NCBI GenBank assembly: GCA_021806645.1
Contig: JAJZQX010000021.1
Span: 1-48,061, forward strand
From: Myxococcales bacterium
Lineage (GTDB): Bacteria; Myxococcota; Myxococcia; Myxococcales; Anaeromyxobacteraceae
Length of the DNA: 48,061 nt
Reading direction: 5' to 3'
Below the pieces are notes generated by a model, which did not search any database, was not told where the DNA came from, and was given only the letters and a program-made list of their open reading frames with translations. Below are positions 47,783-47,863 of the stretch, piece after piece. Both the position numbers and the translations under genes were made by a program. Numbering within the stretch: position 1 is the stretch's first letter; every line of letters begins with the position of its first letter.

Positions 47783-47816
47783 GAAGGCCGCGAACCCGTG
47801 AGGATCCGCGGCCTTC
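47783..47816 (-). terminator. Hairpin downstream of the tRNA-Pro fragment
   Basis: A perfect 10-bp stem GAAGGCCGCG/CGCGGCCTTC with a 14-base loop lies six bases after the tRNA 3' end on the minus strand, followed by a short CCTTT. It is probably the native tRNA-Pro terminator carried along with the fragment. Confidence 0.65.
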
Positions 47817-47821
47817 AGTTG

Positions 47822-47863
47822 TCGGGGCGACTGGATTTGAACCAGCGACCACTTGCACCCCAA
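47822..47863 (-). tRNA. tRNA-Pro 3' half (anticodon loop to discriminator), att-site remnant
   Basis: On the minus strand the 42 bases read anticodon loop TTGGGGT (anticodon GGG), GCAAG, variable TGGTC, T-stem GCTGG, T-loop TTCAAAT, CCAGT, acceptor CGCCCCG and discriminator A. The acceptor would pair with CGGGGCG, which is absent upstream. The CTTGC half of the anticodon stem is also missing. A fragment running from the anticodon loop to the 3' end is what tyrosine-integrase islands leave at their far border. It is not a functional tRNA. Confidence 0.75.

Follow-up and report, generated by a model that had tools for sequence, protein, structure and literature searches.

RESULTS

A tRNA-Pro(GGG) 3' half lies near the right end of the window

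The window analyzed here, 48,061 nucleotides long, is the entire contig C3 of a 4.14-Mb genome (G000) in 33 contigs. Close to its right end, 42 bp (TTGGGGTGCAAGTGGTCGCTGGTTCAAATCCAGTCGCCCCGA, positions 47863-47822, minus strand) match the 3' half of tRNA-Pro(GGG) exactly, from the anticodon loop to the discriminator, and a hairpin with a 15-bp stem and a 4-nt loop follows. The features of the window, and those on contig C8 of the same genome to which they relate, are as follows.

39648-43270, plus strand: acyl-CoA carboxylase genes, taken as chromosomal flank; the homologue in G014 lies 13.7 kb downstream of an intact tRNA-Pro(GGG), in the same orientation
43431-47664: toxin-antitoxin cluster outside the attachment site, with PIN, Fic, TacA1-like/PIN, BrnA and frameshifted BrnT genes (Pfam PIN_3, Fic, TacA1 and BrnT; homologous cluster in G002)
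47783-47816, minus strand: 15-bp hairpin, terminator-like, no clear T-run
47822-47863, minus strand: displaced tRNA-Pro(GGG) 3' half, attachment-site core (attR-type, "att3"); identical to the last 42 bases of the intact tRNA gene, no 5' half
47864-47934: last 71 bp of the integrated element (right arm); a motif around TGCATCGCCTG is common to this stretch and the G002 element end beside the same fragment
47929-47934: insertion-sequence target-site duplication GGTAGC/GCTACC; 6-bp overlap with the C8 end only
47935-48061: insertion-sequence end, two copies in the genome, assembly break; 97% identical copy at C10:134-260
C8:143847-143920: intact tRNA-Pro(GGG), with the 42-bp core at C8:143879-143920
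C8:143076-145304, minus strand (L048:9080-11308): extended integrase frame
C8:316199-316240: second 5'-less fragment ("att2") with its own hairpin; exact core copy

The match between the fragment and the intact tRNA-Pro(GGG) on C8 is not due to chance, because its BLAST E value is 8e-20. ARAGORN and Rfam found no tRNA in the window, as expected for a tRNA half. Compared with the true 5' half, the 32 bases immediately 5' of the fragment have 24 mismatches, where random sequence averages 22.6, and an ungapped search for the 5' half across the 198 bp upstream gave a best match that still had 18 mismatches. Fragment and hairpin fold together with a z score of -4.1. Comparable hairpins lie 3' of the intact tRNA and of other fragments, and a scan for terminators that required a T-run listed none here. 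A weak match to Bp2_287 in the window (E = 0.4) was dismissed as chance.

The 42-bp core occurs three times in the genome: in the window, within the intact tRNA on C8, and in the second 5'-less fragment on C8. The first-pass annotation had described 42 bases of tRNA-Pro from anticodon loop to discriminator, a strong hairpin and no 5' half, and had read them as a footprint of tyrosine-integrase integration. It proposed looking for a 5' half with a covariance or tRNA search, which gave none in the window by Rfam or ARAGORN, and for the same 42 bases in the rest of the genome, which gave the two copies on C8. The description stands, and so does the reading as such a footprint: the intact tRNA-Pro(GGG) elsewhere in the genome has an integrase gene next to it. 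From these sequence features, the fragment is best read as the attachment-site footprint of such an integration.

Fragments of tRNA-Pro(GGG) occur in several genomes of the family

Exact copies of the core number 27 in 24 genomes of the Anaeromyxobacteraceae, 19 of them in intact tRNAs and 8 in fragments distributed over six genomes. An additional fragment with two mismatches in G021 brings the fragment-bearing genomes to 7 of 24. Every family fragment starts at the anticodon loop, and a crossover region in the anticodon loop defines class A of the Islander scheme (PMC4383910). On the strength of these seven genomes, tRNA-Pro(GGG) is a recurrent insertion hotspot in the family. Within the literature library searched, no paper on Anaeromyxobacter islands at tRNA-Pro was found.

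The inserted DNA is 5' of the tRNA fragment

When an element integrates at the 3' end of a tRNA gene, the resulting order is tRNA, island, 3' fragment, all in the same orientation (PMC4383910). The island thus separates the regenerated tRNA from the fragment downstream, and is therefore 5' of the fragment; the foreign DNA is above position 47863, and the toxin-rich segment is outside the boundary. The toxin-rich 43.3- to 47.7-kb segment had been proposed as the island interior, a proposal that was not supported: the segment contains no integrase, no second copy of the core and no change in composition. The companion prediction, that an intact tRNA-Pro and an integrase would be on the other side of the island or else lost, was right as to their existence, both being on C8, but the island extends in the direction opposite to the one claimed. 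In G002, from the same genus, a homologue of the toxin cluster shares one contig with the fragment, and past the fragment comes an HTH_17 excisionase-like gene, as would be expected for the end of an element.

Above 47863 the integrated DNA extends for only 71 bp; from 47935 to the end of the contig (48061) the sequence is that of an insertion-sequence end. In this genome the insertion sequence is represented by two left-type ends (at the ends of C8 and C18) and two right-type ends (at the end of C3 and the start of C10). The flanks of C8 and C3 overlap by 6 bp (GCTACC) and those of C18 and C10 by 5 bp (CTTCG); the swapped pairings overlap by 1 bp, and an overlap of at least 5 bp has a chance frequency of 0.3%. 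This pairing of target-site duplications makes it most likely that C8 and the right end of C3 are connected by a single copy of the insertion sequence, a join across a collapsed repeat that we regard as supported, not proven. With the insertion sequence removed, the C8-C3 junction aligns with the G002 element end, HTH gene included. An IS21-type pair at C8:275.8-278.2 kb, recognized in an IstB search, was not taken as the insertion sequence in the gap, since the insertion-sequence ends at the contig breaks have no match there. We also rejected the integrase with which contig C31 starts as a partner of the attachment site in the window, as nothing links the two.

Element A is a 172-kb unit with metal and arsenic cargo

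Immediately 3' of the intact tRNA-Pro(GGG), the opposite strand carries a tyrosine integrase gene (PF00589, C8:144087-144755) and a gene for an HTH_17 protein. An exact 24-mer is common to the DNA next to the tRNA core and the DNA next to att2 (66 bp after the one core and ~126 bp before the other), and the element, which we call element A, is therefore delimited as C8:143.9-316.2 kb, with 172 kb between the cores. Paired tRNA and fragment ends in two relatives also have words in common at near-equal offsets (15 bp in G010, where a compact element of 5.8 kb is present, and 12 bp in G006, against 8 to 12 bp in unpaired comparisons); in G011, a 10-bp word at the right position is of background length. 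The words common to paired ends look like integrase arm sites.

Along with RadC, ParA and ParB, element A encodes several AcrB-type pumps resembling heavy-metal exporters, a P-type ATPase, and the arsenic-related ArsP, SBF-family (ACR3-like) and ArsA proteins. Homologues of the arsenic block lie near tRNA-Pro in G006, G019 and G021. No phage genes were recognized in element A, and a search of the genome for the relaxase PF03432 found none. A search of named genomes with the element A integrase returned a homologue only in Anaeromyxobacter oryzisoli SG63 (66%), with no tRNA in the 11 kb examined; this match fits the placement of the family in the Anaeromyxobacteraceae (Myxococcota).

A footprint of another kind, a 3' half of tRNA-Pro(CGG) with a hairpin, is present inside element A (C8:173225-173296, minus strand; loci L004/L049), and the intact gene for this tRNA, at C27:22065-22138, has no integrase match beside it. 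This footprint suggests that element A has taken in an element that targets a different tRNA. Integrase genes also adjoin tRNA genes for Gly-CCC and Phe-GAA (C15:31259-31660 and C24:66781-67559), and these loci are probably other islands.

The reading frame of the element A integrase is free of stops through the attachment-site core and then continues antisense across the tRNA, for 743 codons in all. The homologous integrase of G010 also enters its core, in a different frame.

Segment B and the toxin-antitoxin cluster are the probable flanks of att3

Segment B, between att2 and att3, would comprise 9.3 kb on C8, the insertion sequence and the 71 bp on C3, or roughly 10 kb. It encodes two HTH_17 proteins, a transposase-like protein and two putative defense systems: a CBASS-like pair of SMODS nucleotidyltransferase (CD-NTase) and 4TM effector (L051:1732-4241; C8:317.7-320.2 kb), and a C5 methyltransferase with a type II restriction enzyme. 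Beside the CBASS-like pair is a second membrane-protein-like open reading frame with no family match. Arm matching revealed no repeat common to the two ends of segment B, which is probably a fusion of remnants because its ends do not share arms. As a candidate CIME (cis-mobilizable element, with attachment sites on both sides but lacking an integrase gene), it would have att2 and att3 at its ends, and it has no PF00589 gene in its assembled part, the insertion-sequence gap being unassembled and the arms different. We infer that the integrase that made att3 has been lost or lies in unassembled DNA.

On the outer side of att3, the order of the toxin cluster genes is rearranged relative to G002 (44130-47072), with a duplicated antitoxin start at 44134 and 45775 and a remnant of a Fic gene at 47005-47072. 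The BrnT toxin gene carries a frameshift and an early stop (47430-47664, minus strand) beside an intact BrnA-like gene, which was named from its position and sequence and has no Pfam match; in G002, a BrnA-like gene is present with no BrnT adjoining. A G-rich low-complexity tract between Fic and the TacA1-like antitoxin (~45640-45740), which translates as runs of G or P, is possibly a trouble spot of assembly or sequencing.

The carboxylase genes lie 0.2 kb past the toxin segment. In G014, one contig carries an intact tRNA-Pro(GGG), upstream genes of the C8 type and carboxylase genes of the C3 type, with other genes filling the 13.7 kb between the tRNA and the carboxylase genes. This arrangement fits a history in which C3 would be the old 3' flank of tRNA-Pro(GGG). 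As a family-wide anchor the carboxylase genes were set aside, since G014 is the one genome in which they are close to the tRNA. None of the relatives showed an exact empty site, and outside G000 there was no similarity to C3 past the hairpin.

DISCUSSION

The genome contains three copies of a tRNA-Pro(GGG) 3' core, one of them in an intact gene with an integrase beside it, and the ends of element A carry matching arm repeats. We consider it highly probable (roughly 87%) that the 5'-less fragment in the window is the outermost, attR-type attachment site of a tandem array of elements at tRNA-Pro(GGG). In this model, tyrosine integrases would recombine within the anticodon loop of the tRNA gene. 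Under the order of integration events that we infer, each incoming element would bring its own tRNA 3' half and hairpin, so that the tRNA is regenerated and the older 3' half is displaced outward. The resulting array would read tRNA, element A, att2, segment B, att3, toxin-antitoxin cluster and chromosome, with ~182 kb plus the insertion sequence between the tRNA and the attachment site in the window. Tandem accretion of this kind is known, and decayed members are common in it (PMC5704250).

The toxin-rich segment as an island interior survives in one workable form, which we consider rather unlikely. In that form it would be what is left of an earlier, decayed element, with this 3' half and its hairpin as the left end and with its own outer attachment site lost. 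The cluster adjoins the fragment in both G000 and G002 whereas the far neighbors differ, the hairpin by the G002 fragment resembles the one carried by element A, and decayed elements are frequent in such tandems (PMC5704250). Set against this are the missing integrase, second core and composition change already described, and carboxylase genes that lie just past the segment and are also near the tRNA in G014. Even if the decayed-unit version were true, the inserted DNA that severed the 5' half would still be above 47863.

Two explanations without integration at this site fare much worse. Fragments of tRNA genes are reported to occur in genomes for several reasons (PMC9897764), and the one here might be a dead pseudogene or a chance duplication of a tRNA half; this is very improbable in view of the exact identity of the whole 3' half, a break exactly at the anticodon loop that recurs in many family fragments, the integrase gene that adjoins the intact tRNA, and genes of element type 5' of the fragment. 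That a misjoin or binning error produced the fragment, which is 199 bp from a contig end formed by a repeated insertion sequence, is scarcely credible, given that in a second species (G002) a single contig combines a homologue of the toxin cluster with the fragment and this arm motif, and that the insertion-sequence copies pair by their target-site duplications.

The mechanism is a textbook one, and islands at tRNA ends are already well known. The array resembles the tRNA islands cataloged by Islander (PMC4383910) in having an intact tRNA with a cognate 3' fragment elsewhere in the genome, an integrase inside the interval, a class A crossover and, for element A, a length within the 2- to 200-kb range. 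The fragment is downstream of the tRNA, in the same orientation and on the same replicon, in the case of att2 on C8; for att3, this depends on the C8-C3 join. The present locus differs in being a three-site array with one 172-kb member and an outer member without a recognized integrase, and the text of the Islander paper does not name the Anaeromyxobacteraceae. A second parallel is with ICE/IME-CIME accretions such as the composite at tRNA-Lys of Streptococcus agalactiae (PMC5704250), in which several units flanked by attachment sites also accumulate at one target gene and an integrase-less unit keeps its attachment sites and excisionase-like genes. Unlike the S. agalactiae composite, the array described here belongs to another phylum and uses another target, no transfer genes were identified in it (PF03432 was searched), and the arms of segment B are mismatched.

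The overlap between integrase frame and core recalls the Myxococcus phage Mx8, whose attP is inside int (PMC6070905). As in Mx8, integration of element A could change the C terminus of its integrase; Mx8 is a phage, whereas element A has metal-resistance cargo and no recognized phage genes. Because the G010 homologue enters its core in another frame, the overlap may be no more than a coincidence in DNA of high GC content. By analogy, one could imagine that the tRNA-Pro(GGG) integrases of the family carry their attachment site in the 3' end of the gene, that integration rewrites the C terminus as in Mx8, and that this switch favors repeated accretion of metal-resistance and defense genes, a scenario that we regard as improbable.

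The scar described here sets precise boundaries for a large island that combines arsenic genes and phage defense with several efflux systems for heavy metals, in a host related to metal-reducing Anaeromyxobacter. It also illustrates how foreign and resident DNA can be told apart from the polarity of such a scar. The points of note, modest ones, are how large the array is, what it carries and the family-wide hotspot at tRNA-Pro(GGG).
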